From contig JABAKD010000014.1 of assembly GCA_012845835.1 (NCBI GenBank), positions 1,076,001-1,140,000 of the forward strand: DNA of 64,000 nucleotides, in the 5' to 3' direction. Made by a program: the position numbers and the translations under genes. This DNA is from Undaria pinnatifida. Taxonomy: Eukaryota; Sar; Phaeophyceae; Laminariales; Alariaceae. The notes beneath the pieces are model-generated. The model did not search any database, was not told where the DNA came from, and saw only the letters and a list, made by a program, of their open reading frames with translations. This document shows positions 2,521 through 41,279 of this stretch, piece after piece; within the stretch, counting starts at the first letter, position 1, and every line of letters starts with the position of its first letter.

Positions 2521-2627
2521 TTTCTGGCCCGTTCGTCCGTCTTTCCTCCATCCTTCTCGCTGCCGCTTGTGTTACCGTCCTCGTCGCTTCCATTGCTCGA
2601 TGCCCCACGCTTTCCCAATCTGGCCAC
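2521..2627 (-). CDS. SIN3: SIN3 exon 32 (last seen): charged linker
   Basis: 35 codons plus two bases: VARLGKRGASSNGSDEDGNT then SGSEKDGGKTDERAR. Acceptor AATGCAG, strong donor GTGAGT, phase 2 out. No further coding exon is recognisable between here and position 1, so the remaining C-terminal part lies outside the window. Confidence 0.66.
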
Positions 2628-2950
2628 CTGCATTTACATGAAGGGTAGATAGAGGGGGGGGAGCAGAGAAGGTGAGGGGAGGGGGGGGGTTATAAACTTT
2701 TTAGACATGCCCTTCTCTAAATAGTGACAGTCGTTTCAACGAGGGGAATTCTTCGAAGCATCGTGCCCCTCCGCATCTTGTGTCTCTCTGATGTCGAGAG
2801 GTGATATGGTAGCACTCACCACTTTGCCAATAACCATGTCCATATCCATATCCAAAATTTGTAAATCTCTCACGAAAAAAGACTTGAGAATTTTCGTCTT
2901 TCGTTTTCTCGTTTAGTTTTTTCGGTCGTTTTTCGCCCCCATGATCCCAC
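2628..2950. other. SIN3 intron between exons 32 and 31, nothing recognised
   Basis: A short G-rich tract at 2650-2690 and a (CATATC)-like patch near 2840. No repeat family or exon copy identified. Confidence 0.6.
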
Positions 2951-3355
2951 CTCGTCATCCATCCCCATCCCACCCGCACCCTCCGCCGTGGCTCCATCCA
3001 CCTTCAAGTTCCCCCCCCCCGTTCCTGCTCCCCCCATCAACATCGCCTGACTCGCTTTTCCACCAAACCCAGCCAACCCCGCCGCGCCACGCGGGGTCGT
3101 CGGCTTGGAGCCCCCGCTCCCACTTCCACTTCCAGCCGAAGGGGTAGGGCTAGCCCCACGCCGAGGACTAGTCGAAGCTGACCTGGCAGCTCCAGCAGCA
3201 GCAGCTCCCCCAGTTGGGTCCTGCTCTCTAGCTGATGACGATGCGGATGATGGTCTTGGAGCGGATGCTGACGACGTGTCTGCTGCTGAAGGTTCTGCGT
3301 CGGGTTCTCCTACAACGGAGGCGGTTTCTGTCGCTGGGCTAGAGGACCTTATCGG
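2951..3355 (-). CDS. SIN3: SIN3 exon 31: long Ser/Ala/Gly-rich linker
   Basis: An uninterrupted 135-codon frame, PIRSSSPATETASVVGEPDA at the start and GGNLKVDGATAEGAGGMGMD at the end. A strong polypyrimidine tract and CTACAG precede it; the donor is GTGGGA, phase 0. Composition and position fit a disordered linker before the Sin3 C-terminal domain. It could instead be an exon of another minus-strand gene; phase agreement favours SIN3. The intron between it and exon 30 is 3.3 kb. Confidence 0.66.
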
Positions 3356-3539
3356 CTGTAGGGAGAGGGGGGGTAGGGGGGGGGGAGAGGGGGGTTAGGG
3401 GAGGGGAGGGACCTCGCCGGCTATAAGCTCTAAGGGGGGACTAGAGTACGGGGTGGGTTAGGACATTATGGGGGTAGGGGAATGGGAGGGGTAGGAGAGC
3501 AGAGGGGTAGGGAAAGACAGGATTAGGGAGGGCGCGGTG

Positions 3540-3630
3540 GTGATGGTGGTTCCACCTCTGGTTCTCCTACAGAGGAGGCGTTTTTTGTTGCTGGGCTAGA
3601 CGAACTTGCCGGCTGTAGGCGGGGCTAGGG
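3540..3630 (-). pseudogene. Copy of SIN3 exon 31 5' edge and acceptor
   Basis: ggttctcctacagaggaggc and the following gttgctgggctaga and gccggctgtag segments match the start of exon 31 at 3295-3360. The acceptor CTACAG is kept. In the intron upstream of exon 31. Confidence 0.78.
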
Positions 3631-3639
3631 GTGCGGGTG

Positions 3640-3740
3640 GGGGTAGGGAATGGGAAGGGGGGGGGGGGGGGGAGGGGGGGGGGCCTTGCTATAAGGGGGG
3701 GGGGGGGGGGGGGTATGAAGGGGGGGGTCACGGGAGGGTC
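3640..3740. repeat. Poly-G tracts in SIN3 intron
   Basis: Several G homopolymers of 8 to 18 bases; likely hard to sequence and G-quadruplex-prone. Confidence 0.85.
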
Positions 3741-4064
3741 AGGGGATAATTAATTAGGGGGAGGAGAATAAGGAGGGGTTGGTTGTAGTGTTGTGTTGGT
3801 AGTGGTTTTGGTTGTTTGCTGATCGTTGCGATCGCGGTCGCTGTGATTGCTATTAAACCTTTACAGTATCCGCAACAACACAAAAAAGCTGCCTGATCGA
3901 CCCACAACACACCTCTGCCGCGTAAGAGTGGCCAGACCCCGACCCGCCGTGGTTGCTGGCCACGATAAGCTCCATCAGGAGCGCGCAGGACCCTTCAACG
4001 CCACCGAACGCCGTAGACCATTGTAACCTGCATTAATACCACGCATCGGTGTCAGAAAGACGAC

Positions 4065-4490
4065 GTTTTCAACCCTTGACCGACGGACGGCAATTTTCCA
4101 GTAATTTACCTCGACTGACGCCAAACTACTAGCTTTTAGTGTGGAACGATCATTTTTTTTTCACCCTTGACCGCCGGTTTCAACCCTTGACCGACGGACG
4201 GCAATTTTCTAACCATCTACCTTGACTGACGCCAAACTACTAGCTTTGAGTGTAGAACGATAATTTTTCTTCACCCTTGATTGCCGGTTTTAACCCTTGG
4301 CCGACGGACGGCAATTTTCCAACCATCTACCTTGACTGACGCCAAACCACTAGCTTTTAGAGTGGAACGATAAATTTTTTTTTTCACCCTTGATCGACGG
4401 ACGGCAAATCTCCAAGCATCTTGACTGACGCCAAACTACTAGATTTTACTGTGGAACGATCTTTTTTTTTTCAGCCTTGACCGGGTGTTT
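4065..4490. repeat. Four-copy ~110-bp tandem repeat
   Basis: Unit holds cccttgaccgacggacggca, a tctaccttgactgacgcca segment and caaactactagcttttagtg, ending with a T-run. A related inverted stretch is at 45985-46065. Confidence 0.88.
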
Positions 4491-4599
4491 TCCCTCGAAT
4501 GACCGTCTCCTGACACGAAGCGAGGCAAGGACATGACATCTCGAAGGGAGCCTTGTTTCCATTACGAGGTACGAGATAGGTGGTACTACTTAACGCCTT

Positions 4600-4690
4600 T
4601 GCTACTGGAAACCCTTTTTTTCGACAATTTTACTTGAAGTTAGTAGAGGGAGGGGTTTTGGGGGCTCTGAAGGGGTCAAGAGGGCTAACC
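4600..4690 (-). repeat. Family B copy, inverted
   Basis: cttaacgcctttgctactgg through gggctctgaaggggtcaag is the reverse complement of the family B unit. Confidence 0.8.
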
Positions 4691-5508
4691 TGAACAGATT
4701 GTTGGCCCGGCTTTTAATTACCCTTCGGCCCTCGAACAGGTACCGTGTCGGGTGGGAGTAGCCTAGCGCGGCCTGTGAGACGAGAAAAAAAAAAGGTTAC
4801 CAACCGCGAAATGTGCGACATGGGGGGAAAACAGAGTGAGTTAAGTATGACATCTGACAGGTGTGATACAGTCATGTACTGGGATATACAAAGTGGGGGT
4901 CTCCCAATAAGGCGGTATGCCTCGATAACGCGGACCAAAACACGTGGTACGACCAGGAAATTGCGCTCACAACGTGGAGTGAATAAGGCGGCTTCCTTCT
5001 ACAAGGCAGTCATATCGCTCTGGCACGCCACCCCTACTGCCTACTGCACTTAGTCAAACAGTGGTGCAATTATCAGTTGTTGTTTTTTTCTTTCCCTCCG
5101 GCGGGTGGGGTCGAAAAATCAAACCTTAAGCTCACCACACTTCCACGTATTTTCATACACGTCACGTATCGATTCAACTCAATGGCATTCGCAATCCAGT
5201 GCTAGTTATCGTGTCCTTCGGTTCCCGCGATGACGATAGCGTGAGCTGTCCCTTTCGGCGGTCCCCGTTACTATCCCGGCAGCGCAAGCTGCCGTTGTAT
5301 ACGGATGCGTGAGTATGTCGACCCGGCCTGACCCCAGAGGGTCAGATGCGGTGGAGATAGCCACCCGGAACGGCATCATTCCGGGTAGTGTGGGGCTTGC
5401 GCAAGCTTACAATAGTCAGTACTCGGGGAAACACTGGTACAAAAGGTGTGCAAGGCAAACAAAGGTTGAGACCTGTCCGCCATCGAAAGACAACAAAACT
5501 TACCGAAA

Positions 5509-5764
5509 GAACAGCACAAAAACTAGGAAATCTCTCTCTTAAGATATACATAAACACAAGTACGCCTGAAACGAAAAAACTGATAGAATAATCCCCGACA
5601 CAATGCCAACTGGGACCGGCATGCAGCGCTTGTCTAGAACAGCACAATAACTAGGAAATCTCTCTCCAAGATACATGAACACAAGTACGCCTCAAACGGA
5701 AAAAAAAACTGATAGAATAATCCCCGACACAATGTCACTGGGACCGGCGTGCAGGGCTTGTCTG
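5509..5764. repeat. Two-copy ~128-bp tandem duplication
   Basis: gaacagcacaa(a/t)aactagga, aacacaagtacgcct and tgatagaataatccccgaca occur in both halves (5509-5637 and 5638-5764) with few differences, so the duplication is fairly recent. Confidence 0.92.
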
Positions 5765-5944
5765 TGTGCGGTTAGTTTAGACATAACAGACAAACTAAGC
5801 CCGGTACAAACATGCCTAGATACCTCTACCAATATACCGCGTTTTCTCCGTTAACATGTGTGCAGAGCCGTTACTGCGCTTAATAATGCTATCGTCATTA
5901 CTATTAATAGCATTGCTAATAACGCTATTAATGTGATTTATAAT

Positions 5945-6603
5945 TATGCCCCCCCCCCAACGCTCCCTCCTTCTCCACCACCCGCACCATCGCCTAGACC
6001 TAGCACCACGCGTATAGCAAACCCCTACATCTATGCGACCTAAAGATGTTTGAAAAACCCTTTCGCCCCCCCCCCCCCCCCCCCCCCCCCCCCCGCCCCC
6101 CCTTTCCCCCCTCGAACGCTCCGCCCTCTCCTCACTGGTTGTACGACTTACGGGGTATACATGATAAACTGGTGCATTGAACCGTCACATTTATCCCCTT
6201 AAAGGATTTATAGTTTCCACGCATAGATTGAGCTGTCCCCCCGCCCCCCCCGCTCCCTCATGATCCAACCCAGACCCCCACGTCCTTAAAAACTCTGTCC
6301 TCCCCTCACCGGTTATTCGACTTACAGGATTCACTTGATAAACTGATGCATTTCCTTCCACAGCCGTCAGATTTTGTCCCCCTCAAAAACGGGTTTTATA
6401 GTTTCCGCGCACAGACTGACTAACATCACCCTCTTGACCCTGATAGCTACGATGTAGTTGCAAGGGGAGTCGCCTACCTATATCCTTAATGAGGACACAC
6501 AACCCGTAATACGCGCGATCGAAGTATCACACACAGCTTGCAAAGATGAGTTTCGACCAAATCTTCGATCTCAAAGCTGGAGTGTATTTTTATTTTTATA
6601 ATA
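5945..6603 (+). mobile_element. Non-autonomous dispersed element, long copy (family A)
   Basis: Begins at a poly-C rich segment with accatcgcctagacctagca, includes gataaactgatgcatttcct and tatccttaatgaggacacac, and ends ggagtgtatttttatttt-ATAAT. A second long copy is at 52755-53325. It has no ORF. Other copies are shortened from the left but keep the right end. Confidence 0.8.
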
Positions 6604-6655
6604 ATCATGACTATACTCACTAAGATTATGATAATGATAATGATTATCCCGTTAC

Positions 6656-6739
6656 CTGGTGCTGGAAAAGCTGTATCATCTTGAAAGAGGATGGGTCGTC
6701 GACGACGGTCTTCAGCTGCCGCAGGAACCCGTTCATCAC
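6656..6739 (-). CDS. SIN3: SIN3 exon 30
   Basis: 28 residues: VMNGFLRQLKTVVDDPSSFK then MIQLFQHQ. In the family DKL(V/I)..(V/L)..QL......D.....L..LY follows directly on exon 29. Acceptor CTGCAG, donor GTAACG, phase 0. Confidence 0.94.
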
Positions 6740-6810
6740 CTGCAGGAAGCAACAAAAATGGCAACGACAACATTGACTATGGCGGCTTCCCCCAACGAGG
6801 GTCATTCCTT

Positions 6811-7288
6811 ACGAACAAAAAATGTCAGGAATCGTGATACTTTCATCAGGAATCCTGATTTTCACGTCACGATGTGTGCCAAAAAAATCAATCATTACAA
6901 CATACATTTTTTTTAGATATTTTCAAAACGATTCATGATCACGATTCGTGACAAATGTCACACCTCTTGAAAAACAAACAACACGCCTGATCAAGACACA
7001 CAAAACCACTCTGCGCCCCATCTCCACCAAGAGGACATCCAACGCCGGTGGGGGGCATATATGGGGCATGGCAGACCCTGCTACGCAGGCCGCTTGCGAG
7101 GAAAGACGAGGCACTGCGGACGATCAGCGACTGTCCACAGGAAACGCTGAAAGCGTTTTGAGTGTAAATTTCACGAAACGTGACATACGTGGCATATCAC
7201 ATTTTATCGTTAGGAAATAAATGTCAGGATTCGTGATATCTTGTCACACACCCAAATGTCACGATTCCTGACATTTTTTTTTGTTCGT
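6811..7288. mobile_element. TIR element (MITE-like) with repeated palindromes
   Basis: Terminal inverted repeats: acgaacaaaaaatgtcagga at 6811 is matched by the reverse complement ending at 7288. Inside, imperfect palindromes of the type gtcacgattcgtgac recur near 6824, 6847, 6939, 7224 and 7258. No convincing ORF. A target-site duplication was not clear to me. Sits in the SIN3 intron between exons 30 and 29. Confidence 0.72.
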
Positions 7289-7559
7289 CGGGAACGGCGC
7301 TAAGACGGCTTCTCCCGATAAGGCGGTCGTGCTGGTGCATTGATCTATCTGTCACACCACCGCCTTGCTGCTGCTGCTGCTGCTGCTGCTGTATAACAAC
7401 TTTTCTGAAACAAAAAGCCAGCCTAAACGAGCGCCAGGAAACGCGTCGTGTCATTGTTGAGGGTATCGGTTAAAAAACCCTTCAGTTAGTAGTACTTGAA
7501 AAAATTCGGTGAGCATCAAAAGCTGACACGTGGGAACGCTGAACCCTATGCGCGACAAA

Positions 7560-7712
7560 AATGAAAGCATGCACCGGGGGGGGGGTGGGGAGGGAAAACA
7601 CCTGCGACCATGACCATGATGATGGTCATGACCATGGGTGTTGTTGTCCAGGAGGTCGCTGAGGGTAAAAACTCATACGAGTCGATCGAGCTGGAGAGCA
7701 AAAGTTGATCGC
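7560..7712. repeat. Dispersed repeat shared with 18720-18865
   Basis: acacctgcgaccatg, gtcgctgagggtaaaaact, cgagctggagagcaaaag correspond to similar strings in the intron between exons 20 and 19. Both sit in SIN3 introns. Confidence 0.65.
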
Positions 7713-7821
7713 TGAAAAAGAAAAAAACAAGAAAAAGAAAAAAACAAGAAAAAAAAAATAATAATCTACGTCGGCGGCTGTCGTAATGTTCTTTCCAGAA
7801 AAAAAAAAAACGCGGGCCTAC

Positions 7822-7890
7822 CTTGTCGTAGCTGAAGAGCATGTACCCCTCGTTGCCCACCGTCATCTGCACGGCATCCTCAAGCTTTTG
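7822..7890 (-). CDS. SIN3: SIN3 exon 29
   Basis: 23 residues: KLEDAVQMTVGNEGYMLFSY then DK. This matches the family block FED..R...G..AY..FT.DK. Acceptor TTTGCAG, donor GTAGGC, phase 0. Three copies of its 5' edge and acceptor occur upstream in a roughly 180-bp tandem array. Confidence 0.94.
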
Positions 7891-7944
7891 CTGCAAAAAA
7901 AACGTCAAGCACAACAGGGACAACAACCACAACCACAATCACAA

Positions 7945-8475
7945 TTAGCGCGTTGGCGAAACACAAGAACGGTCTCGGCTGGGTTTTGAAAAGCTGCCCG
8001 ACCATGCTAAACATTTGGTCTACTAACAAATCGTGCAGCATCTTAGAAGTCAGGGATTGCTTCCTCTGCAAAACGAATGTCAAGTACGAAAACAAGGGCA
8101 AAAAAAACAACAACAATAACTAAATGAGCGCAATAACAAAACACAAGAACGGCCTCAACCGGAGTTTGACAGCTCCGCGACCATGCCAAACATGTATCTA
8201 TCAACAGATCGTACGGATTGTATAATCAGGGAATGCTTTTGCTGGACAACAAACGACAATCAAGAACAGGAACAAGGACAAGGACAACAACAACGATGAC
8301 GACAATGAGCGCATTGACAAAATTTAAGAACGGCCGCAACCGGGTTTTGACAGCTGCTCGACCACGCTAAACATCATCGGCTAATAGATCGTGCAGGTCA
8401 TATAAACCGTCCTGAAGCTTTTGCCGCACAACAAAAGACAACAAGAACAACGAAAATGAGCGCATCTACAAAACA
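7945..8475 (-). repeat. Three-copy ~180-bp tandem repeat carrying copies of SIN3 exon 29 acceptor edge
   Basis: Each unit holds aacacaagaacggycysrrc, a cagctgcycgaccatgctaaacat segment, a gatcgtgcag segment and an aagcttttgctg segment equal to the exon 29 5' edge (codons QKL). Units end near 8075, 8262 and 8440. The region then runs into an ACA microsatellite. Confidence 0.8.
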
Positions 8476-8552
8476 CAACAGCAGCAACAACAGCAACAAC
8501 AGCAACAACAGCAACAACAGCAACAAACAACAAACAACAAACAACAAACAAC

Positions 8553-8644
<92 letters not shown>
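8475..8644. repeat. CAA/ACA microsatellite
   Basis: Starts as CAG/CAA mixtures and becomes about 90 bp of pure ACA repeats. Open in several frames as poly-Q, poly-N, poly-T or, on the other strand, poly-L/V/C; not a gene. Confidence 0.97.
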
Positions 8645-8690
8645 CTACATATATGTCAAAATCTGATCTGATCAATCGGCAGAGCCTCAC

Positions 8691-8870
8691 CTCATTGGCC
8701 GACTGCTCCGTGAAGGCGTAGAGCAGGGTCAAGAAACCATCGTATCCCCTCAACGCTTTACCCTTCCCCTTCACATCGCCGTCCGTCGTGGCCATGCCCA
8801 GAGACCGCACGAGCTTCTCTTCCTCGGTTTCACAACCCTCCCGCACCGTCGGGTTCTGGGGGTGGTCTTT
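8691..8870 (-). CDS. SIN3: SIN3 exon 28
   Basis: 60 residues: KDHPQNPTVREGCETEEEKL, a Gly/Lys stretch, then GYDGFLTLLYAFTEQSANE. The last part matches the family helix (..YxxFLxLLxxxxxG.......). Acceptor CGCAG, donor GTGAGG, phase 0. Separated from exon 27 by a 2.8 kb intron in which I find no extra exon. Confidence 0.88.
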
Positions 8871-9114
8871 CTGCGTGGCACCAAAACAAAATTACGGCGG
8901 ACTATGTTTCAACACATCGGATACATGGCCTATAAATACTATACACAATTTACACCCAATATCCATTGCGTTGGTGTATTGTGCACGACACAACACCATC
9001 TAGATAATCTGGATGCTGTATCTGTCCTCATGATGTGTTGTGCACAACATATCACGACGGGCATTGATTTATCACATGCGTTCTTTTGTCATACTACCTG
9101 TGATTATCAATAGA

Positions 9115-11250
9115 CTACACGCCTAGACCATTACTGGCATGCGCCGAGCAGGCGGCGTACGTCAGCCCCACGCTGAGAACCTGCCCTCGAAATATGATAC
9201 AAAGACCTGGTTTCTGGTACGAATTAACCATTGTTTTTGCGTTACAACAGCAAACACTGATGTAGGTATTGTAAGAACGCAGTAACTCTCTCGCGACTTC
9301 TGTGCGACATAGCGGGTTGCGAAACTCTCTCGCGACTTCTGTATGACATAGCAGGTTGCGACGTCTGCATGACTTGCGTGGCATGTAAAACATCGATACA
9401 TGTACGTATCATACGTAAAAACGTACTGGTACGATGTGCGATATTATACAAGACTATATTATACAACACAGTGTTCACATGCCACACACCAAAAAGGGGG
9501 AGCTCGAGTAGAAAAGGTGGTACAGCACAGCAGTATCGCCATGGGTTATTAATTATTTTTAGCCGTGGAACTTGTTTTAGCTTTGAAACCAGTTGCTAGC
9601 TGCGTTTGGCCTTGCAACAATACGTGGCACCCCAAAGCAACGAACCCATCATACCACAACACCACCAAACATACGGATTGAATTGACCCAACTGGTTGCT
9701 TTGTCACACCGCGCCATAATGTACAGACCGTACCAACCCCAACCCCCATACCGCTTGCTTACGCTTCGTAGTCTACTTGCTCGAGCTGTGAGTCGGCTGG
9801 ATTTGGCTGGATTTCACGAGCAACTAATCGGCAGGTGCCCTTAGCCAACAAACCGGCTTTAGTCGGCAAGTCGGCTCGAGAAACCAACTAATGGCCTGTC
9901 GACTTGACGCCTTCGCTACAGGAGGCTATAATCCTTTTGAGGCCCACATACGGCGATAAAACAAACTAATAATACAAACCTGTCCTCACCACGGGCACAA
10001 GCATGCAGCACAAGCATGCAGCACAAGCATGCAGCACAAACCATAACACACAAACCACAACGCACAAACCACAACGCACAAACCACAACGCAAAAACCAC
10101 AACGCACAAACCACACGCCAGTGCAACATGTCGGCGCGCCTTACATGCGCTTGCTGGCATTGGAGTGGTTAGACTGGAAAATCGTCGTCACCTAATAATC
10201 CATCTACAGCAGCAGCAGCCCCGGTCGCTTGGTGCAAAGGATGCTACATACAATCGTCAGTTACAATGTATTCGCCATTGTTTTGTTTTCGCTCTCAAGC
10301 CCCACAAGGACGCATGATACCAGAACCAACACGGTGATACCACGACCTTCCGCCTTTTACGCGGCCATTCTGCGCACGGACACTTGTAGCACATGGAACG
10401 AAGAACTGTATGCGACTGGCGGTGGGTCGAACAAAACCAAGCGGTTGATTTAATTTAGCCTTTGATACGTGATTAGGTGGCATCATGATGGGCGCCACGT
10501 GCTAACCATCACATGGCACAGCACGTGAGGATCGAACGAACCACTACTGAAACAACTCAACAGGTACGATACAAGAAATGACTGCCTTTGTTTCTGGTAA
10601 ACGAGTGGCATGCAAAAGACGAGTATCGAAACGAACATACCCAATACACAGCGGACGCCAACTTAGCTCAATTTTATTTTTATTCTGTATTATAAAAACG
10701 AAAACAGAATGTGTACCCGTACTTCTGTGTATAAAAACACATCATACCGCATGGCACATATTTTTTTCTTGCACGTAGTCTCGTGTGCTGGCTTACACAC
10801 GTTTTTCCCTCGTGCTCATTGCCGTTCGCTTTGCATGCCATCAATGCCATCATGGCCAAATCACCTTCCCGTATTTGAAACAATGCATATCTCTGTCTCG
10901 AAGGTTGTGACCACATAACTTCTCTCCAGGAAGCATGGGCACCAACACTGCTTGTGCTGGATTTATGTGGTTACAAGTATCACTTTAATGGGAAATATCA
11001 CACACATGCCCGGACACAAATAGGGATCGAATCAACCGAATCAACTGGAACCGTATACCACGCCAACATAACACAACACACTTCGCCGAGCGGTGCGCCC
11101 AACAATAAATTCCCAACGCCGTCGTTTCGGGTAGAAACATGATAAAACACGGCGTGAGCTGTGAGTTCTTCCGGAATGTCTCAACTTCACAAGCTGTCCG
11201 TGAAAGACTAATCGTTTTCGTTCGTTCGTTCGTTCGTGTTCGTTCGGTGC
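9115..11250. other. SIN3 intron 27/28: minisatellites, no exon seen
   Basis: Contains a 2-3 copy repeat of actctctcgcgacttctgt at 9280-9365, copies of cacaagcatgcag (10003-10037) followed by about six of a 14-bp caaaccacaacgca unit (10037-10115), and a (GTTC)n tract at 11219-11248. The rest shows no recognisable feature. Confidence 0.65.
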
Positions 11251-11254
11251 GGTT

Positions 11255-11640
11255 CTGATGTAACTAAGATGGCCTTGATCGCTTCACACCCAACAGTAAT
11301 ATCGACTTACAGTGCGCCCCACCACAGTGCGGGTTTCCTCTGACCTGGCTTGCCTTAAGCGTCTGACCAACAACAGTATTTATTTACTAAGGTGCGGGTT
11401 TCCTCTAAAGTGCGTACCAGTACGTCTTTTACAGTGCGGTTTTGCGGTGACCTGAATGACTGTAAGCGCAATAGCCTCCTCTCAAGTCCCAAAGGGGTAT
11501 CCAGCCTGATCTACTTCTGGCAGTCTACAGTGCGGGTTTCCTATACACATCGCGGTTTTTCTCTGACCTGGATGGCCTTAAGCGCTTGAACAACAACAGC
11601 CTCACCTACTTCTAATAACAGCAATGATACCGCTATTCTC
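11255..11640 (-). pseudogene. Tandem degenerate copies of SIN3 exon 27 donor edge
   Basis: The motif cctctgacctggatggcctt with a preceding cagtgcgggtttc recurs near 11330-11375, 11393-11475 and 11528-11592, with a weaker one near 11265. The true exon edge (ctctaacctggatggcttta) follows at 11657. Copies contain the CAG-GT junction or relics of it. Confidence 0.8.
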
Positions 11641-11663
11641 TACAGTGCCTTTTTCGCTCTAAC

Positions 11664-11762
11664 CTGGATGGCTTTAAGCGCCTTAGCATCCTCGGCGAGG
11701 CGGACGGCCTTGCCCAGCCGTTCGCACAGCACGTGGTGCAGCCGCATCAGCACGTACAGCTC
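11664..11762 (-). CDS. SIN3: SIN3 exon 27: RLHHVLCERL block
   Basis: 33 residues, ELYVLMRLHHVLCERLGKAV then RLAEDAKALKAIQ. The family has a ..WY.F.RLH..L..RL..... helix after the linker. Acceptor AAACAG, donor GTTAGA, phase 0. The donor side is surrounded by several degenerate tandem copies at 11.26-11.64 kb. Confidence 0.93.
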
Positions 11763-11959
11763 CTGTTTCCGTTGAAAAAAACACACACGAGAGTGAAGAG
11801 ACAACAACAAAGCGCAAAATTAAACAAAAAAAACACTCACACGAAAAAAAAACAAAAAAAAAACAAAACAAAACAAAAATAAGAACAAGCAATTAACAAA
11901 CCCGTTCAAGCCTAACTAACAACGAACTAACGAACCAAGTGATAAAAAATGGTGAATTT

Positions 11960-12192: not shown

Positions 12193-12331
12193 GGTTGAGC
12201 AGGTCGTCCACCATCACCATCACCAACATCTGTAATAGCAAACTATACTATAAATAATACAACGTAGTTTATAACCCCTCCCCCCTGCTCTCGCCCCCTC
12301 CCGTCACGCCTCACCCCCCCTCTCCCTCTAC

Positions 12332-12529: not shown

Positions 12530-12554
12530 CTACAAAAGTGGAGAAGGATTCAAG

Positions 12555-30640: not shown

Positions 30641-30659
30641 CTGTTGAAATAACAAACCA

Positions 30660-31690: not shown

Positions 31691-31698
31691 CAGCTCAC

Positions 31699-32113: not shown

Positions 32114-32134
32114 CTGGGTTGAAGGGCAGGGCAT

Positions 32135-32345
32135 GGAACAGCACGGGATGGGGTGGCATATGTGCAACAAGCCGATAAGACAACAAAATTGTGAAAAATA
32201 AGCATGAGCATTTCGTATACAAAAAAGGGATTACAAAACGGAACAGCACGGGATGGGGTGGCATATGTGCAACAAGCCGATAAGACAACAAAATTGTGAA
32301 AAATAAGCATGAGCATTTCGTATACAAAAAAGGGATTGCAAAACG
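32135..32345. repeat. Recent ~105-bp tandem duplication next to exon 7
   Basis: gaacagcacgggatggggtg through tatacaaaaaagggatt is present twice and almost identical. Lies just upstream of the exon 7 acceptor. Confidence 0.95.
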
Positions 32346-32384
32346 GGACGAGCGAACAAAAACTAACTGACAACCAAAAAAGTA

Positions 32385-32575
32385 AACCAAAGGGGTCAAC
32401 CAAAAAGGTCAACCAATAAGGCCAACCAAAACGGTCAACCAACACGGTCAACCAACACGATCAACCAAAAAGGCCAATCAAAACGGGCACTCAAAAGGCC
32501 AACCTAAACGGTCAGCTAAAAAGGCAAACCAAATTGGTCAACCAAAATGGTCAACCAAAACCGCCAGCTAAATGC
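32385..32575. repeat. ggtcaaccaaaa minisatellite
   Basis: Repeats of about 10-12 bp (ggtcaaccaaaac, aggccaaccaa). Similar aaacggccaaccaaa units recur at 32850-32935 and 34215-34385. Confidence 0.88.
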
Positions 32576-32724
32576 CCGATCAAAGCGACTAACACAAAGC
32601 CTCCAGTGCTCCAACCCGCGGCTTACCCGCTCTAGCAAACCCCTGCTAACGCGACGCAATCCGACACAAGCTCAATTCAAACGCTATCCAAACCTGAGCC
32701 AAACGCGATGCAAACTCGACAACG

Positions 32725-32815
32725 GTGCCTGGCAGCACGGATAAGCCTTTCCCGCGCTTGTTCCTAGACAGGGTCGGGCGAGAAGTACGTGAACTCCCGG
32801 GGGAGACAGGGGTCA
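32725..32815 (-). pseudogene. Copy of SIN3 exon 6 3' part, donor GT to GC
   Basis: About 90 bp closely match the end of exon 6 (proteins around FLPDPV...RERLNRAA). At the junction the donor GTAAGG is replaced by GCACCG. It lies in the intron downstream of exon 6. Confidence 0.85.
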
Positions 32816-32979
32816 ACGGCAACGACCAATGAAATAATAAAATGGCAAACCAAAACGGGCAACAAGAATGGCCAACCACAACGCCCAACAAAAGTGGCCC
32901 ACCAAAACAGCCAACCAAAACCTCAAACCAAACCCACTTCACGCGACGCAACTCCAAGCAAACACAGCCAGCACCTTAC

Positions 32980-33109
32980 CTGGCGGCACGGTTGAGCCTC
33001 TCCCGCGCTTGCTCTTGGACAGGGTCGGGCAAGAAGTACGTGAACTCTCGGAGGAGATCGGGGTGGTCCGCGAAGAGAGACGACACCTGCTCCAGTACGT
33101 CCTTGATAC
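32980..33109 (-). CDS. SIN3: SIN3 exon 6: second half of PAH2
   Basis: Encodes GIKDVLEQVSSLFADHPDLL, then REFTYFLPDPVQEQARERLN. The pattern of an LF...HPDLL...F..FLP motif is the PAH2 end. Enters in phase 1 and leaves in phase 2 with donor GTAAGG. A partial copy of its 3' two-thirds lies downstream at about 32.73-32.81 kb with the donor GT changed to GC. Confidence 0.95.
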
Positions 33110-33854
33110 CTAAAAATCAAAATACCGGTACGCACGTGCGCACGCGATCGGGCCAGGTGGGTTGTGCTGTGTTGTTGTTCTCACACCAACTCATCGCCAC
33201 AGTCCAGCCAACGCTCATATGACAAGCTTCAACAACTTTGGGGGTGAAGAGCACCCCAGGAAAACTAAAACTTCATGAAGAGTACTATATTCTCTACAAA
33301 AACGCGCGACCGGAATACCACGCAGCTTTGCAAATATGAGTATCGAGCCCTGAATGGTCCAACTCACATCTGACGTATTGGAAACAATTTCACAAGATAC
33401 TAAGCACAACTAGGGCGTTCCCGAATTCCAACCTCTGTTGGGTAACAATACTACTGAAAACAACGAAACATCGTGACCCAAGGCCTATCTGTACACACCA
33501 AAAAAACAGATTAGAAATTAACAAGATGGTAGGAAAACATATTTCTAGCCTCATTTTCTTTTTTTTTACGCTGATTCTTTGTGGGTTGGGTTGCCCTTGG
33601 ATTGTAACGTTCGACGGTTTCAGTACTAGTAATAGTATCACTACTAACACATTTTCCAATCCAACTCCTATCGGAACCATGTTGGATCTCGTAACAACGC
33701 TATTGAATTTTTGAACATTTGTGGTGTCTTGTGTTGCATTGTACCGGTTTTGTACAAAAAAGCTAAAACCTACCAGTACACCTCAGCTGTGAGATCGACC
33801 AAAAAGGGTTTTGATCCAAACTCTTGCATTGTATTGTAGTGAGTGTAGTGTGCT

Positions 33855-33915
33855 GTGTTGGGCTGGGCTGGGCTGGGCTGGGCTGGGCTGGGCTGGGCTG
33901 CGTTGTGTTGGGCTG
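33855..33915. repeat. GGGCT pentanucleotide repeat
   Basis: Ten consecutive tgggc/gggct units. Confidence 0.95.
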
Positions 33916-34418
33916 GGTTTGTGTATTTTCAATGCCGTGTTGTGCTGTACCGAACGCGCCCACGTCTCCACATCGTCCCGTCCCGTCGACATCAACCGAC
34001 ATCCCACAATCGTATATATGAAAAAAGTCATGCTCGCGTCTTACGAATTTTGAAAGTTTTTCACGGTGTAACCGCGTTTTTCGGTGATACCGTATGGTTG
34101 AATTTGGCATTTGGATTTTTCTTCCCAAGGCATTTTTCCCCCTGCAATGCGGAAGTCGTTCATTTTGTTTTCTTCTTACCTGAGACAAGCCTTATTTCCT
34201 GAACGGTTATAAGAAATAGTCCACCGAAACGACCAACCAAAATGGCCAGCCGAAACGGCCAACCAAACGGCCAGCCGAAAAGGCCAACCAAAACGACCAG
34301 CCGAAAACCAAAATGGTGCAAACTAGCTGTGTAGCCCACAAAAACGAGCCACCAAAAAGACGAACCAAAATGACCAACCAAAATGTCAATATCCACTTCC
34401 TTCCTTTCGTCCTTTTAC

Positions 34419-34539
34419 CTCTTTGCTCCTTCTGGTACGTGTGGAGGATCTCAAGGAACGCCTTGTACGTCTGAGGCTCGTGACTGAACCGCTTCTTGAT
34501 GGTAGTAACGTACGTAATCGCGTGGTCAAACTCCGCCGG
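34419..34539 (-). CDS. SIN3: SIN3 exon 5: first half of PAH2
   Basis: Encodes 40 residues plus one base: [18 protein letters not shown], then ...[19 protein letters not shown]. This matches the first two helices of PAH2, the domain that typically binds repressor peptides such as those of Mad/Mxd in animals. Acceptor CATCAG, donor GTAAAA, leaving phase 1. It joins exon 6 through a split Gly codon. Confidence 0.96.
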
Positions 34540-35177
34540 CTGATGGTGCAAACGAAACCAGCGAAGATGAAACCGACGAAAAAAAAAGCAAACAACGGCG
34601 ACGACCACAACGAAGACGAGAACGGCGGCGAAGCGACGGGCGGTGACGAACCGGTCAAAAGTCAGAGGTGACACGTCAAATGTCAAAAGTTGTCAAAAAA
34701 AATGAACGAATGCGTCAAAAAAGATACAGGGTACAAGCTTCAAGGCTCCCCTTTGGGGTGTGGTCATCTTATCGTTAAACCTCGGGAGTGTCTCAACCCA
34801 TCTTCAACTCCTAAAAGGTTTCTCCTTCAAACGCAAGTGTTTTGTCTCCATGTCGAGAGTGCGGTGCTAAAAGGGGTAAGTTGAAAAACGGGCAAAAACT
34901 ATTAAAAAAAATATATATATATCCGCCGCGCAAGTAACCCGACCGAAAAGTATCGTCCGACCAGCGCAGACGAAGTTATCGCTCAGTCTACCCAAACGCC
35001 TCCTTTCACGATACGTCACAACAATTCACAACCATCACAATTCATTTTTTTTATGCCCGTTTCATTGTATAACCTTACCATTTTCGCTCACAATCCTTCG
35101 CTAAATAGTTCACCAAAATCTTCCACAAGAGCTTTCACAATCTTCAGTAACCCTACTCTTCCACAACAAAAACTTAC
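34540..35177. other. SIN3 intron 4/5, nothing recognised
   Basis: AT-rich patch at 34900-34925 and several A-runs. I see no exon copy or repeat family. Confidence 0.5.
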
Positions 35178-35836
35178 CGGCTCGTTCGCCCGCGGCGGCA
35201 TGCCAAACCCGCCTTCGTGCCCGCCCGCTCCGTTTGCATTCGGTCCCGGTGGCACCACCCCCACCGCATGGGAGCCCACATTCCCCATCGGCATACCACC
35301 CGCCAAAACCGTGCCCCCTCCCCCCCCCCCCTCCTCCACCCCCACCGCCTCCCCCCCCCCCGCCACCCCCCCCCCCACCGCCTCCGCCTCCCATAGCTCC
35401 ACCCCCATCATGGCCACCCCCGCCCACACCTCCACCTCCCCCGCTAGGGCCGTCGCCGCTACCTTGAGATCCCCCCATGCCGTGCCCTCCTCCGCCCGCG
35501 TGCCCCCCGCCACCAGCAAGAGCTTCAACCATGTCATGCACCAGGGCGGGGTTGGAGGCGGCCGCCCCCCCCCCCCCCTGCACCACCACCCTGGTTGGAA
35601 ACCTCTTTGCTGCCGGAAGAAAACGCGCCTCCACCGCCGCCACCACCACCGCCTCCACCACCACCACCGCCACCACCACCACCAACAACAACACCGCCAC
35701 CGCCAACACCCCCGCCGCCACCACCAACAGCGTTGTTGTTGATGTTGCTGTTGCCATTGCCGCTGTTGTCGACGGCATCTTGAGGGATTTCGCCGCGGTT
35801 GATGGCCATCTGACGCTCATGTTCCCGGTTCATTTC
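35178..35836 (-). CDS. SIN3: SIN3 exon 4: Gly/Asn-rich linker between PAH1 and PAH2, frame slips
   Basis: Starts after TTTTTGCAG with EMNREHERQMAINRGEIPQD, then an Asn patch and long poly-Gly runs, and ends GMPPRANEP before donor GTAAGT. Both neighbouring joins are phase 0, yet the exon is 659 bp, not a multiple of 3. The plausible frame changes twice, once near the C-run at 35565-35580 and once in the C-runs at 35320-35390. Homopolymer length error in the assembly is the simplest cause; small introns inside or a real frameshift are alternatives. The linker has no recognisable domain. Confidence 0.75.
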
Positions 35837-36149
35837 CTGCAAAAATAATTATCGGTGGGGAGAGCGGATGGAAAAAACATACAGTACATAAAAAAAGTTG
35901 AGAATCGTCCATCGCGGCATTTTTGTCAACAATTGCCGTTGACAAAACGGTCGATTATCTTACTATTCTACCCTTAACGTCGAAGAGCTCGAATTGGCAA
36001 CGGTCAGGAAGGAATACGTTACCAAGCAGGAAAGCCTTCCCACTCCCTACATTACCAAAACGGTCGATTCTTGCTCACATGTTACCAATGTGTGGGCAAA
36101 AAACCTCCCTGCAATACCAGAATGGCTACTCAATGCTAACTTTTATGTC

Positions 36150-36700
36150 GGAAAGTTAACATTATACCTTGTAACCGTCGGGGGAGAAAAACGTGTTGAA
36201 GCCTAAACGCTACCATGAATGCCATTCCCGAACGGCAACTCACTTCGCGCCTAGAAAGTTCATTTGGTAACAGTTATGAAGGAGCGCCTGGTACCCCAAG
36301 CAGAAAAAAATGGAGAAAATTCTCCGTACATTACCGAAACGGCCATTAAAAATCATCAGAAGCCTCCGAACAATACCCAAACGTTAATTTCTTACCTCGA
36401 TGTCGGAAAGTTCTATCTTGTCACTGCTGGGAAGAAACGTGTCGAAGCCTACATATACCCTAATAGGAAAGCCTCATCACAATACCAAAACTGTAATTAT
36501 TTATATGTATGTAGGAAAGTTCTATCTTGTAACCGTCGGGAAGAAACGTGTTGAAGCCTGCCTACATATACCTTAACAGGAAAGCCTCCTCAGAATACGA
36601 AAACCACAACTATTTACCTCAATGTCGGAAAGGTTTATCTTGTAACCGTCGGGAAGGAAGGTGTTGGAGCCTACATGTACCCCAACAGGAAAGCCTCCTC
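36150..36700 (-). pseudogene. At least four copies of SIN3 exon 3 3' end and its donor region
   Basis: The string cttgtaaccgtcgggaagaa and its flanks (equivalent to PDGYKIEL plus the donor side) recur near 36170, 36417, 36527 and 36635, each followed by a related intron segment with aggaaagcctcctcacatta. Spacing is about 110 to 245 bp. All are in the intron downstream of exon 3. Confidence 0.85.
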
Positions 36701-37864
36701 ACATTACAGTGGGCGCTGCGGTTTAAGATAGCGGTGTGCCATACCGACGAAAACTATCTTAAACACGTAGCTCTCCTAAATCGGTTTAAGATATGTTTTA
36801 TCTTAAAGCGAGATTTTGGGTTGAAATAAACTTATCTATAACAGAACATTTGGGTTTTAGAGAGCCCGGGCCTGGGGTCAAGAGCGCTTAAAGGGCAGGA
36901 TGTTGCCGTTGTGCCTATTCGAAGTGTTGAAAGCGCATTTCGTATTGTTTACGCAATATTTACCGTGCGTTGGAGGGCCGACACGCAGCACGATCCTTCC
37001 TTGTTGCGTACTCGCGGAGTATATTAAAACAAAAGTAAATATAAAGAAGAAACATCTGCGTGAGATGAGCTCACCAGGCTACGTAGAGTATATTGTCGAA
37101 TGAATTGTTCTCTTTGGCAGGGTTATTCCAACATCATCTACACCCTGTAAGCAGCCAACATAACACAGAGAGAGGCGAAGCAGCATGGGCATCACTCACG
37201 GTACTACTGTACGTATTATTGTATCTCGGACGCAAAAAACAAGAAGCAGAAAACAACAAAAAACACAAGCTACAGCAGCAGTATTCCATTGAGAGCGACT
37301 CAAGCCTCCAACAAGGTGCCACCCCTCACTACCAGTGAACCTCACACACTTACACCCCTGAACCTCACACACCCACATCCCTGAACCAGACAGACATCCA
37401 TCCTATGCGTATGACAGCAGCTCTGCAACGTTACAAAAAGTCTGCCATGATAGTTTGCTTCGTTTTCCTCCACCCAAACTCCCTCATCCAAGCCAACTTC
37501 GCCTTGCGAAGATGGTACGACACCTCGGCCATGTTACACTTCTCTGCTTCACCCTCGAGGTCCCCAAACTGGCTAGCTACTTTCGTGTAGGGTGGTGGAC
37601 GCGGAGTGTCTACGGCCTGCTACTTGTCTCCCGCCCAAGAGTCGGCATCGTCATCATCCGAGTCTAGGATTTGGTCGGCAAGGTTGTCAAGCGATTCGTC
37701 AAAAAGGTCTTCCTTCAAATCGTCTACCATCGCTTTAAGATATTCGATGTTCGGTTTAAGATAAGGTGTGCCAAGCCATTTTTGACTCTCTTAAACACGT
37801 GATTCTCTTAAACTAGGCTATCTTAAACCGCAACCCCCACTGTACCAAAACCGCAATTATTTAC

Positions 37865-37993
37865 CTCGATGTCGGAAAGCTCTATCTTGTAACCGTCGGG
37901 AAGAAACGTGTTGAAGCCAAGGATGAGCTTGTTATAACCGCGGAACAGGCTAGAAACGCGGCGAATCACTCCCGGCGTGTCGATCGCCATAGC
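37865..37993 (-). CDS. SIN3: SIN3 exon 3: PAH1 end
   Basis: Encodes 43 residues including [20 protein letters not shown] and [14 protein letters not shown], the last helices of PAH1 and its conserved GFNTFLP motif. Acceptor TTTAG, donor GTAAAT, phase 0 on both sides. It is the most heavily copied exon in the gene: its 5' part recurs upstream (38.1 and 38.45 kb) and its 3' part recurs at least four times downstream (36.15-36.70 kb). Confidence 0.96.
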
Positions 37994-38104
37994 CTAAAGT
38001 CAATAGATAAATTAAACAAGCAGGGGGGGGGGGGGTCATACAAGGAGGGGACGGCTTAGCACACAAACAAAAGCAACATATAGGGACGGGGGACGTACGC
38101 ATGG

Positions 38105-38182
38105 GCGGACAGACGGGTGAGCTTGCTATAACCGCGGAGCAGGCTAGAAACGCCGCGAATCACCCTCGGCGTGTCGATCGCC
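38105..38182 (-). pseudogene. Near-intact copy of SIN3 exon 3 5' part
   Basis: After CTATAG it reads AIDTPRVIRGVSSLLRGYSK, nearly the same as exon 3, then loses the GFNTFLP end. It sits in the intron upstream of exon 3 with an acceptor-like AG, but has no donor at the equivalent place. Confidence 0.85.
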
Positions 38183-38437
38183 TATAGCAAAAAAGAAACG
38201 ATGCCAGCATACCGGAGGGGGTGGGGGGAGTAATACAAGGGGGAAGGTGTAGTAATTTCATGCAAAGCCGTAGTAGTAAGATCATGTGGTATAGACCTTC
38301 ACACCCCTACAATGTCGGGATGGAGCATGCCGGGGTGTCACCGATCAGGCAAACATCGCGTGCACCACGCGCGAGCAAGGAGGGTTAACGGAAACATCAA
38401 TAGCGGGCGGGGACGGGGGGAGGGGGGGGGGAGTTTC

Positions 38438-38512
38438 TTGTAGGCGCAGAACAAGCCGGACACGCAGCAAAAATCGCCCTCGGCGTGTTGATCGTCACTT
38501 AGCCTACATGCA
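38438..38512 (-). pseudogene. More decayed copy of SIN3 exon 3 5' part
   Basis: The segment still aligns with exon 3 (INTPRAI for IDTPGVI) but has drifted much further than the copy at 38.1 kb. Located further from exon 3. Confidence 0.75.
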
Positions 38513-38943
38513 AAGATACCGGTACGCCACCCCAGTAAGAAGTCCAACAAAGAGGGAAAAGTGCTAGCTATGGCGGGGTCCATTCAATGAAACGTTGGAA
38601 GCATACAAATACAATGGGGGTCCCTCAGTAGTGCCGGTTCAGCAGTGCCGGTTGGCCGCAGTACTGCCTGCAAAATCGCTCGCCACACATGAAACCTTTG
38701 CTGAAGAAAATCGCTGGTTTCCTGGGAGGGACAAACGTCTTACAAAAACTAACCAAATAACAGATAGCCACCGCACAAGTAACCGGGCAAGTAACAACGA
38801 CCAGCCCACACCACTTTACAGCATAGCCTATACCCCTGGGCTGTGAGTTTCTCCATCGGGTGGATCTTTCTCTTTTCTAAAAATCAGTGCTCGAGAGCGG
38901 TCGTCGTGCTACACCAATCGCATCACGCGTCAGCTATCCTCAC

Positions 38944-39012
38944 CTTAAAATTTTTCATGATGTCGAGGAACTCATTGTAGATCTCTGGCTTGTCTCCGAA
39001 CTCGTTCTTCAC
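38944..39012 (-). CDS. SIN3: SIN3 exon 2: PAH1 middle
   Basis: Encodes 23 residues beginning VKNEFGDKPEIYNEFLDIM, the second part of PAH1. The acceptor is TGACAG and the donor GTGAGG, both phase 0, so it joins exon 1 as ...YLDQ-VKNEF... with no gap against the family. Two degraded copies of its 5' half and acceptor lie upstream at about 39.13-39.19 and 39.43-39.48 kb. Confidence 0.95.
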
Positions 39013-39129
39013 CTGTCACCATAAACAACAAAACCGGTGCCCACTGTCACCATATTTGAACAACTTGTGCAAGAACTCAAAACGATGTTGGGGTTTGGTA
39101 GTGAATCGTAAGGCGGTTTGCTTGGGCAT

Positions 39130-39190
39130 GAACCCGACTCCTCGTACATATCTGACTTGTCTCCGAACTCGTTCTTCACCTGTCACCACA
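39130..39190 (-). pseudogene. Copy of SIN3 exon 2 5' half with intact acceptor
   Basis: Reads VKNEFGDKSDMYEE after TGACAG, so the acceptor and 14 codons are preserved. No donor follows in register. Confidence 0.85.
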
Positions 39191-39429
39191 GTCAACAAAA
39201 TCGAGTGCCCAATGCCACAATACTTTTAACTATTAAAAAAAATGTGTTGTAAGGACGTTAGCTGTGAGTTCGACGAATCTAGGATCAGTACTCATCTTTG
39301 CAAGCTGCGTTGTTGGTACTTGTAGTATGCTACGTATGTGGGTGAGCTATTTGTTTATATACTCTGGCGAAAAAAACTCAATAGCAGGTATCAATTACTG
39401 GGGTTTTACATATCACAAGGCGGTTCACT

Positions 39430-39485
39430 CCTTGTAGATATCTAGCTTGCCGCCGAGCTCGTTCTTCACCCGTCACCACAAACAC
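39430..39485 (-). pseudogene. Decayed copy of SIN3 exon 2 5' half, acceptor lost
   Basis: Reads VKNELGGKLDIYKE then stop; the acceptor CAG has become CGG. It is the more distant of the two copies and the more changed. Confidence 0.82.
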
Positions 39486-39944
39486 CAAACATGGTGCCAA
39501 AACGTCAGGTTCGGGATGTTTTATTAAAATATTCGTTTTTTTTTATAATAACTACTTACGTCAGCAGTGAGTTCGACTGATTTAGGGTAGATACCCATCT
39601 TTGCAAGCTGCGTGATACAATGGCCGCTCGTGTTTACACATGTATTATTCGCTGAACATACACACACGCCTCCTGTGTCTGTACATGGTCCAACAACTCT
39701 TGCGTGTAGACGCGGTTTATACTGTATTGTAGGGCGGTTTGCTTGGTTACGAAAGCGCCGGTGCAGGGAGCGAGGACGCCTGTGCAGTGAAACAGTATTT
39801 CACTCTGTTTCTTTCGCTAAAAACAAAACAAAAGGTGTCCCAATGTTAGTATCACGATTCCCTATACCAGGTATCGTGCAAAGGACAACTCGATGACATG
39901 ATGAAGTTTGTGGTGGGCTATACACTTCCCCTACGGGATGCGGT

Positions 39945-40050
39945 CGCAATCCCGGGTGTCTTGACCCCTTTAGAGCCCCCGAATCCCTCCCAGCACTAAA
40001 CTCAAGGAAATTTGTCAAAAAAAAATTCCAGTTGCAAAGGCGTTAAGATG
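39945..40050 (+). repeat. Family B copy
   Basis: gacccctttagagcccccga through ttgcaaaggcgttaag. Confidence 0.82.
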
Positions 40051-40339
40051 AAAATGGGGACACACTCTTGTAAAAACTGAAAAAAAAAAGACAACCCACC
40101 GCGCAAGCAACCCGGCAAGCCACACCGACCGACCAGTGCAGACGAGTTTACAGCTCACCCGATAGTCTAGAGCGGCGGTCTCAATGTAATAGGAACTAGC
40201 ATAGCAGGATACTTGCTGTCGACAAGCTCTGCGCGCGCGTGTAAGGCGGGCGCCACAGGCAACTCGAAAACGGGTAGCTTTTGTTTGGCGCCTTCGGCGC
40301 AGTCAAAATTAGAAACTCGCATTCGGTCGAAAACACCTG

Positions 40340-40510
40340 TGCAGCAGTGGTCTCTTTATAGTGCCGGTTGGGTAGTGCCAGTTGCCCGCTATAGCGCCTG
40401 TGAAATCGCTTGGCACAGATAAGGACAACCAGTAGTGGCAATGTAGGGAGTAGTGCCGGTTGCCGCTATAATGCCGGTATTTCCCTCTATAGTGCACATG
40501 CCGGCTCCAT
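40340..40510. repeat. Family F copy
   Basis: Contains agtgccggttggg, gcgcctgtgaaatcgcttgg and agtgccggttgccgctataa. Confidence 0.8.
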
Positions 40511-40720
40511 AGAGGCATCACTGCTTTATGGGTTCAATTGCCTGGCACAGAGTAGCTGGCCTGAACGAGATAAAGAAGAGCGTCCAAAAGAACCCTGATC
40601 TCGAAAGATAAACAAATAAATGTACTATAAATACAGGCCCTCCCGTCATAGAGCACACCGCAAAAAAACTTACCTGGTACCTGGTAAGCTTAAAAACGCA
40701 GGACAAGCACCAGGCGTTTA

Positions 40721-40971
40721 ATTGCACGTACGGCAACGTTTTCAGATTTGCACGTAAACTCATTACGGCCCCTGTCGACCTCGAGAGCAGACCTCGATCC
40801 CCTCAAAGGGTTAGGGTTGGGGTTAGGGTTAGGGTTAGGGTCAGGTCTGGGGTCGGGTTGTCTGGGCGGCGCAACCGTCATTTTGTGCGGACCTGCACAC
40901 AGGGAGCCGTTATACATAAATCGCCATTGAATTTACGTGCAAATCTAAGAACCCTTGCACGTACGTGCAAC
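40721..40971. repeat. Inverted repeat enclosing a telomere-like TTAGGG tract
   Basis: Left arm 40721-40760 (gcacgtacg...cagatttgcacgtaaa) and right arm 40932-40971 (atttacgtgcaaatcta...gcacgtacgtgcaa) are imperfect reverse complements of about 40 bp. Between them, 40807-40850 has gggttagggttagggttagg with variants. Confidence 0.8.
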
Positions 40972-41190
40972 TTCGCGGGGGGCCCGGGACAAGCAAGACA
41001 TTGGACAGCTGAAACAAGCAATGGGACAGCTGCTATACTCAAGTTGGTGTAGGACACATCCTTTCCCAAATAAAACTCTAGCCTAAAGCCAACATCCCGG
41101 TTTCTCTCAGAGGACGTCACCAGCTTGCCTCGCCGGTCATGCTGCAGTTAAACGTGGAATGACGTAGGGGCATATTAGAGAATAGCTGAC

Positions 41191-41279
41191 CTGGTCCAGA
41201 TAAAGAAGAGCGTCTTCCACCCGTAGCTCACGCATGGTTGCTCCTTGTTCAGGGACTGAGCCCCCTTGTCCGCCTCGAT
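41191..41279 (-). CDS. SIN3: SIN3 exon 1 (of those seen): start of PAH1
   Basis: The frame reads MRELRVEDALLYLDQ at its end, the first helix of PAH1 in SIN3 proteins. The donor is GTCAGC, phase 0. An ATG lies at 41235-41233, but the frame stays open upstream as a Gly/Gln-rich stretch (RGGQGGSVPEQGAT) to a possible acceptor GTGCAG at 41280. I therefore think the real start codon is in an earlier exon that I could not identify. If translation did start at this ATG, PAH1 would begin almost at the N-terminus. Confidence 0.85.

Follow-up and report, generated by a model that had tools for sequence, protein, structure and literature searches.

One-sided copies of exon edges in a brown-algal SIN3 gene and their probable origin by local duplication

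Without transposons, the lengthening of introns is difficult to detect from sequence, as neutral copies fade fast. Duplications inside genes are one source of intron sequence, and intron gain by tandem or internal gene duplication was reportedly described by Rogers in 1989 and by Gao and Lynch in 2009. Here we analyse the SIN3 co-repressor gene of the brown alga Undaria pinnatifida, which lies on the minus strand of a 64,000-nt stretch of DNA (hereafter the window; contig JABAKD010000014.1 of assembly GCA_012845835.1, C20:1076001-1140000), and in whose introns decayed partial copies of exon edges are found on one side of the exon only. Tandem duplication has been reported as the route of intron birth in Drosophila (Lehmann et al. 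2010, PMC2891723) and of intron gain in the potato RdRp gene (PMC4974935); as the Rogers model is presented in the part of the latter article used here, a new intron arises where none existed. The sections used of a report on other brown algae give average intron lengths of 1057 bp for Saccharina and 703 bp for Ectocarpus (PMC4421812).

The SIN3 copies resemble tandem-duplication intron gain in that a duplication within the gene converts copied sequence to intron, and reading into a copy meets stops here too, as do the duplicated introns with premature stops in the excerpts used of Lehmann et al. (PMC2891723). Unlike in intron gain, it is existing introns that appear to be lengthened, and the gene model gives no sign of an added one. 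A further comparison is offered by the vertebrate repair-mediated duplications, or 'doublets', of Pace et al. (2009, PMC2671141), four of whose donors are listed as partial exon/intron in the table drawn on. In the portions of that paper used here the duplications are likewise short and closely linked, copies within 50 bp are omitted from the set, and one exon copy has the opposite orientation. In contrast to that set, the copies at our locus are nearly always in direct orientation, some follow one another head to tail, and around exons they keep to one side.

We consider it very probable that the exon-edge copies in these introns are explained by local duplication next to the source together with a polarity shaped by selection. 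The ingredients of this explanation are already known; new are the density of the copies and their one-sided record, and a limited literature search returned no paper in which exon-edge copies on one side are described as recording how introns lengthened. An earlier, sequence-only reading of the window had proposed that introns grow here by tandem duplication across splice junctions. Our results confirm its observation and partly support its interpretation, which was mostly right, with the changes that duplication is general rather than demonstrably tied to splice junctions and that the polarity is best taken as a signature of selection.

Side of the exon on which the copies lie

The SIN3 gene was modelled over 2517..41279 of the window, and its PAH repeats and Sin3 co-repressor domain (Sin3_corepress) were recovered exon by exon across 2.5-41.3 kb on the minus strand. 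From a scan for coding sequence and splice sites, anchored by hand, came a chain of 32 exons; in the final model of 33 exons the co-repressor exon at 26953-26846 was added by hand and several borders were hand-corrected, and modelled exon 1 may not be the true first exon. The best matches by identity are a protein of Scytosiphon promiscuus, with 80% identity across 97% of the searched part of SIN3, and one of Ectocarpus, with 83% across 47%, which marks the source as a brown alga. Judged by reading of the alignments, 25 of the 33 modelled exons are supported when these brown-algal SIN3 proteins are used as tblastn queries; exon 32 has a weak tblastn match, exon 6 a PAH match, and exons 7, 8, 11, 18, 19 and 31 were placed by the scan and by eye. 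Uncertain in the model, being of low complexity or without support, are exons 7, 8 and 18 and the end of exon 4. Within exon 4 (35178-35836) the open frame seems to require a frame change inside a G run, possibly a homopolymer error of the assembly. The genome surveyed (511 Mb, 68 contigs) holds further PAH-domain sites at C28:8107631-8110212 (L001, L005, L006) and C34:4837819-4837905 (L004); two of those on C28 share an open frame of 766 residues, so a second SIN3-like gene may be intron-poor.

The sequence-only reading had stated that copies of 5′ exon edges lie upstream of their exon and copies of 3′ edges downstream, and had proposed an alignment of exons to their own introns as the check. 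Probes of up to 60 nt of exon edge (never more than half of the exon), used either alone or together with 60 nt of flanking intron, were aligned to every SIN3 intron, with simple repeats masked and scores calibrated on unrelated introns. The outer intron of a probe is its own intron on the predicted side (upstream for a 5′ edge, downstream for a 3′ edge) and the inner intron the one on the other side; junctions were scored only where enough unmasked sequence was present, which left 56 with flank and 58 for the exon edge alone. As the intronic half of a flanked probe comes from the outer intron, flanked probes favour that side, and the probe of exon edge alone is therefore the fair test of polarity. 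At p < 1e-4 such probes matched the outer intron at 10 of 58 junctions, the inner intron at none of 56 and unrelated introns in none of 1746 pairs, so that matches to the own intron exceed those to unrelated introns and are polarised by side; at p < 1e-3 the matches number 12, 0 and 1, respectively. Flanked probes gave 13/56 outer, 0/56 inner and 1/1746 unrelated matches at p < 1e-4, and one of the 13, at exon 7, is an intronic-only tandem duplication. The first version of the test, with 55 of 64 outer pairs scored, gave 12/55 outer, 1/55 inner and 1/1718 unrelated matches, its sole inner match arising from an overlap artefact, as exon 2 is only 69 nt long.

For an independent test the genome was searched for chaperonin (CCT) exons and three genes (L019-L021) were chosen blind to their repeats. 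Three of the 24 exons predicted in them were dropped as not CCT-like, leaving 21, 14 with a domain match and seven accepted by eye, one of which (exon 3 of L021) yields one significant CCT match; three acceptors were left out as uncertain, and starts were set by hand for exons 2 and 3 of L019 and exon 6 of L021. Exon-edge probes from these genes matched outer introns at 5/37 junctions, inner introns at 0/37 and unrelated introns in 0/784 pairs at p < 1e-4 (7, 0 and 1 at p < 1e-3). Flanked probes gave counts of 6/35, 0/37 and 0/784, one of the six matches being intronic only, and among the nine outer matches found at p < 1e-2, five cross the junction, two are exonic only and two intronic only. 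In L019, the 3′ edge of exon 4 and its donor recur as an array of several decayed copies in the following intron (L019:5569-6348).

When SIN3 and CCT are pooled, the exon edge alone is matched at p < 1e-4 in 15 of 95 outer and none of 93 inner introns (Fisher 3e-5), which upholds the asserted polarity across four genes; at p < 1e-3 the counts are 19/95 and 0/93 (1e-6), and unrelated introns are matched in 0/2530 and 2/2530 pairs at the two thresholds. The pooled flanked probes, which lean outward, give 19/91 outer against 0/93 inner matches, two of the 19 being intronic only. A copy that contains exon sequence thus accompanies 17 of the 91 scored junctions (SIN3 12/56, CCT 5/35), and in the four genes tested an exon-edge fossil is found at about every fifth or sixth junction.

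Anatomy and spacing of the SIN3 copies

Edge copies accompany 11 of the 33 SIN3 exons, with copies of the acceptor edge upstream of exons 2, 3, 22, 24 and 32 and copies of the donor edge downstream of exons 1, 3, 6, 13, 16, 17 and 26. At least 11 of 32 exons had been credited with decayed partial copies by the sequence-only reading. On our matching of the two numberings, in which exons 2, 3 and 6 keep their numbers, its exons 14, 17, 18, 23, 25, 27 and 29 are lowered by one and its exon 31 becomes 32, ten of its 11 are borne out; its exon 29 (our 28) falls away, as the duplicated acceptor region there is nearly all intronic with seven exonic nt, and exon 1 is an addition to its list.

The alignment spans the splice border at all 12 SIN3 junctions with exon-edge copies, as tandem duplication across the junction would have it. 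Identity to the original is 82% in the exonic and 77% in the intronic parts of the copies, and the exonic part has the higher identity in 13 of 18 rows, which is expected if one side is constrained. An in-frame stop is met on reading through to the copied site in 17 of 17 rows (with the frame of exon 1 assumed), and in the gene model the copies sit inside introns whose functional splice sites lie outside them.

In the head-to-tail cases the periods are 96, 105, 110, 128, 176, 251 and 252, with gaps of 4, 0, 1, 0, 2, 24 and 15 nt, respectively. Near-adjacent copies belong to exons 6, 26, 28 and 32 and to several intronic cases (all coordinates given here for SIN3 originals and copies are on the minus strand). 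The donor edge of exon 6 (32838..33064) is followed by a copy at 32517..32813 (period 251, 24 nt between copies), and that of exon 26 (11526..11693; exon 27 of the earlier numbering) by two within 11308..11592, one at 11502-11592 (period 96, 4 nt between) and one at 11308-11481 (period 212). Upstream of exon 32 (31 before), the acceptor edge at 3281..3522 recurs at 3538..3774 with 67% identity (period 252, 15 nt between), and the acceptor region of exon 28 (7884..8056, including the seven exonic nt) has two more, mostly intronic copies at 8059..8526, the nearer with a period of 176 and 2 nt between. The purely intronic tandem cases have periods of 105 at 99% identity, 110 at 87-88% and 128 at 89%; the first is a fresh duplication (2 × 105 bp, 32135..32346) directly upstream of the acceptor of exon 7, and the second an array of 3 × 110 bp at 4067..4400, upstream of exon 31. 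The 99% identical 105-bp duplication shows recent activity.

Unaligned spacers of 55-265 nt separate a second group of copies from their originals, namely those of exon 2, the acceptor of exon 3, and exons 22 and 24. The acceptor edge of exon 2 (38970..39061) has a copy at 39137..39230 (84%, AG kept) and another farther upstream at 39427..39501, where AG has become GG; that of exon 3 (37921..38059) has one at 38115..38252 (77%, AG lost). For exon 22 (previously 23) the original at 14738..14882 is matched at 14985..15130 (65%, AG kept), and for exon 24 (previously 25) the original at 12874..13071 is matched at 13337..13524 (66%).

The remaining copies, all of donor edges, lie farther downstream. 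The edge of exon 1 (41179..41214) recurs at 40549..40584 (86%, GT changed to GC), and that of exon 3 (37838..37918) in a tandem array of about three 109-bp copies at 36360..36707, 81-88% identical to the original, with an older decayed copy at 36100..36214. Exon 13 (14 in the earlier numbering; 25440..25532) has a nearer copy at 25015..25080 (75%) and a farther one at 24863..24954 (71%), exon 16 (earlier 17; 22365..22455) one at 21840..21929 (77%), and exon 17 (earlier 18; 19804..19985) one at 19122..19274 (65% over 182 columns) with a dispersed repeat in the spacer. More than one copy of the same edge is present for SIN3 exons 2, 3, 13 and 26 and for exon 4 of the CCT gene L019. That the closer copy is the better preserved, as had been suggested, holds for the donor of exon 3 and weakly for exons 13 and 26, and fails for exon 2 (38/43 versus 37/43 exonic nt).

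Local duplication, selection and competing explanations

Repeat pairs less than 600 bp apart in the window are direct in 55 cases and inverted in one, and the density of direct pairs is 84-100 per kb of distance near the source and 0.6-2.5 beyond 2 kb, with inverted pairs at 0-3.6 throughout. Twelve other 10-kb stretches, picked by position only (seven of 20 drawn, 13 of which fell beyond contig ends, and five more), hold 65 direct and four inverted pairs less than 2 kb apart, and a direct pair is present in 12 of the 12 and an inverted pair in three. When the window is cut into 120-nt tiles, a local direct copy is found for 55 of 356 intron tiles, 13 of 85 junction tiles and 90 of 360 tiles outside the gene, compared to nine, one and 13 tiles, respectively, with a local inverted copy; within SIN3, recognisable local direct pairs span 4351 of 33616 intron bases. 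As direct pairs also occur outside the gene and in the other stretches, the process is peculiar neither to SIN3 nor to introns, and our data support local direct duplication genome-wide in the sample examined, within and outside genes. A general mode of intron expansion had been suggested for this genome; the local direct duplication across the sampled genome and the polarity repeated in CCT would fit this, with no support for splice junctions as special targets.

We picture short segments, mostly of about 60-500 bp, as being duplicated beside themselves in the same orientation throughout the genome. Where such a segment lies across a splice junction, two equivalent junctions would result, of which only the inner one would leave the message unchanged, as a transcript read on into the outer copy would meet a premature stop. 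Under selection the inner junction would then be retained, and the outer copy would turn intronic and decay. Each junction-spanning event would lengthen the intron by the length of the segment, and repeated events would leave the same exon edge in several copies. The polarity is better seen as what selection leaves than as a mutational preference; from the copies we infer the order of events, the selection behind the polarity and the persistence of the added length against later deletion, and net intron growth is plausible.

Several observations weigh against so simple a history. The exonic part is not the better preserved in five of 18 rows, and at exon 17 it is clearly the worse (70% vs 87%); the copied splice dinucleotide is intact in 11 of 18. 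The copies of exons 1, 3 (donor), 13, 16 and 17 are parted from their originals by about 360-1400 nt of unrelated sequence, and the rest of the presumed duplicated unit shows no second copy at p < 0.05 for seven of nine copies (exon 24 at 0.05), with a weak signal for the other two (exon 16, p 0.04; exon 3 donor, p 0.02). Neither are the repeat pairs counted above independent events, for arrays (20.5-21.3 kb, 55.8-56.2 kb, L014, L015) supply many of them. Tandem duplication across the junction, as first proposed, therefore stands as regards the crossing of the junction, but a strict head-to-tail origin can be seen for part of the copies only; the spaced ones may have gained an insertion afterwards, lost the second remainder to a deletion or arisen by duplication in a spaced mode.

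Repair-mediated capture, in which break repair copies a nearby stretch and pastes it elsewhere close by, with no need for adjacency (termed 'RD' by Pace et al. 2009), would account for the widely separated copies at exons 1, 3, 13, 16 and 17. In the parts of that paper used here, proximal RDs average 162 bp, a similar size, and lie at most 5 kb apart (PMC2671141). However, as we understand the model, capture should paste on either side of the exon, and the exon-edge copies are outer in 15/95 and inner in 0/93 cases; some inverted copies would also be expected (the same portions give one example, PMC2671141), compared to one of 56 pairs under 600 bp in the window. As the spacer at exon 17 holds a dispersed repeat, later insertion partly explains the spacing there, and we regard capture as an unlikely source of these copies. 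Splice junctions might instead be hot spots of duplication, for instance through transcription- or splicing-linked breaks. Flanked junction probes do match somewhat more often than intron tiles (13/56 vs 50/317, odds ratio 1.6), as do 60-nt probes (10/58 vs 69/656, odds ratio 1.8), but the differences are not significant (p 0.18 and 0.13, values made rough by overlapping tiles). Moreover, in a small simulation at 0.3 substitutions per site, detectability is 0.85 for junction-anchored copies versus 0.23 for intron-intron pairs, so that an excess at junctions is predicted without hot spots, as anchored copies remain detectable for longer. Special targeting of splice junctions is not supported, and we think hot spots less likely still than repair capture.

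Two further explanations fare worse. Exon sequence with a splice site inside an intron is what decayed tandem duplication of whole exons, for instance for alternative splicing, would leave, and mutually exclusive or tandemly duplicated exons likewise place exon-like sequence in adjoining introns. Among the extended SIN3 alignments, however, no copy has both splice junctions or a complete exon; each ends inside the exon and continues only into the outer intron. Full-length exon copies with both splice sites being absent from this set, whole-exon duplication was rejected and is in our view very improbable. Since the introns abound in simple repeats and harbour dispersed ones, one could also suspect chance, low complexity or transposable elements with a likeness to exon edges. 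With simple repeats masked, though, exon-edge probes at p < 1e-4 found nothing in unrelated introns (0/1746 for SIN3, 0/784 for CCT), which makes this explanation negligible for the significant matches; chance and a transposon or introner origin of the exon-edge copies were rejected on the absence of any such match in 2530 pairs.

Local duplication followed by selection would also give the exon a use as an instrument, since a constrained exon is a slowly changing reference, with a built-in direction, for recognising old duplications. It offers a countable record of intron lengthening, and the comparison of outer with inner introns can be applied to any genome. A bolder extension, which we put forward tentatively and hold to be rather doubtful, is that local duplication is the main driver of intron length in this lineage and that junctions act as a ratchet, where duplications are tolerated and invariably lengthen the intron and deletions across the junction are not tolerated, such that exon-edge fossils layer outward. 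If that were true, introns would be readable like growth rings, recording how and when each grew.

A second gene and repeats in the window

Near the far end of the window lies a second gene (57.7-59.5 kb, spanning to 59592), which enters none of the polarity counts. Its end, coding to the stop, is at 58632..59063 on the minus strand, with a 5′ border set by eye and a homologue (P0121); a VTT match below the curated cut-off is the single match of a Pfam scan of the minus strand over 55-64 kb. The last exon has its 5′ part copied upstream at 59326..59421, and two decayed copies of the gene's 3′ end lie downstream within 57672..58380 (58188-58380 and 57672-57889), all on the minus strand. Pfam scans of the plus strand over 42-51 kb (one frame to 54 kb) and of the minus strand over 46-55 kb gave nothing to E 0.1. 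Brown-algal DNA was also sought in viral and prokaryote contig collections, in which five stretches matched a peptide pattern and none was a relative.

At 14119-14248, a SIN3 intron holds 5.9 perfect tandem copies of a 22-bp unit. A dispersed repeat of about 306 bp is present in three copies, about 92% identical, at 6269-6580, 16548-16860 and 52990-53292. A stretch like the end of this repeat is found at 39255-39310 and again at 39558-39613, within the duplicated units upstream of exon 2, and, judged by eye, the insertion of the repeat would thus predate that duplication.

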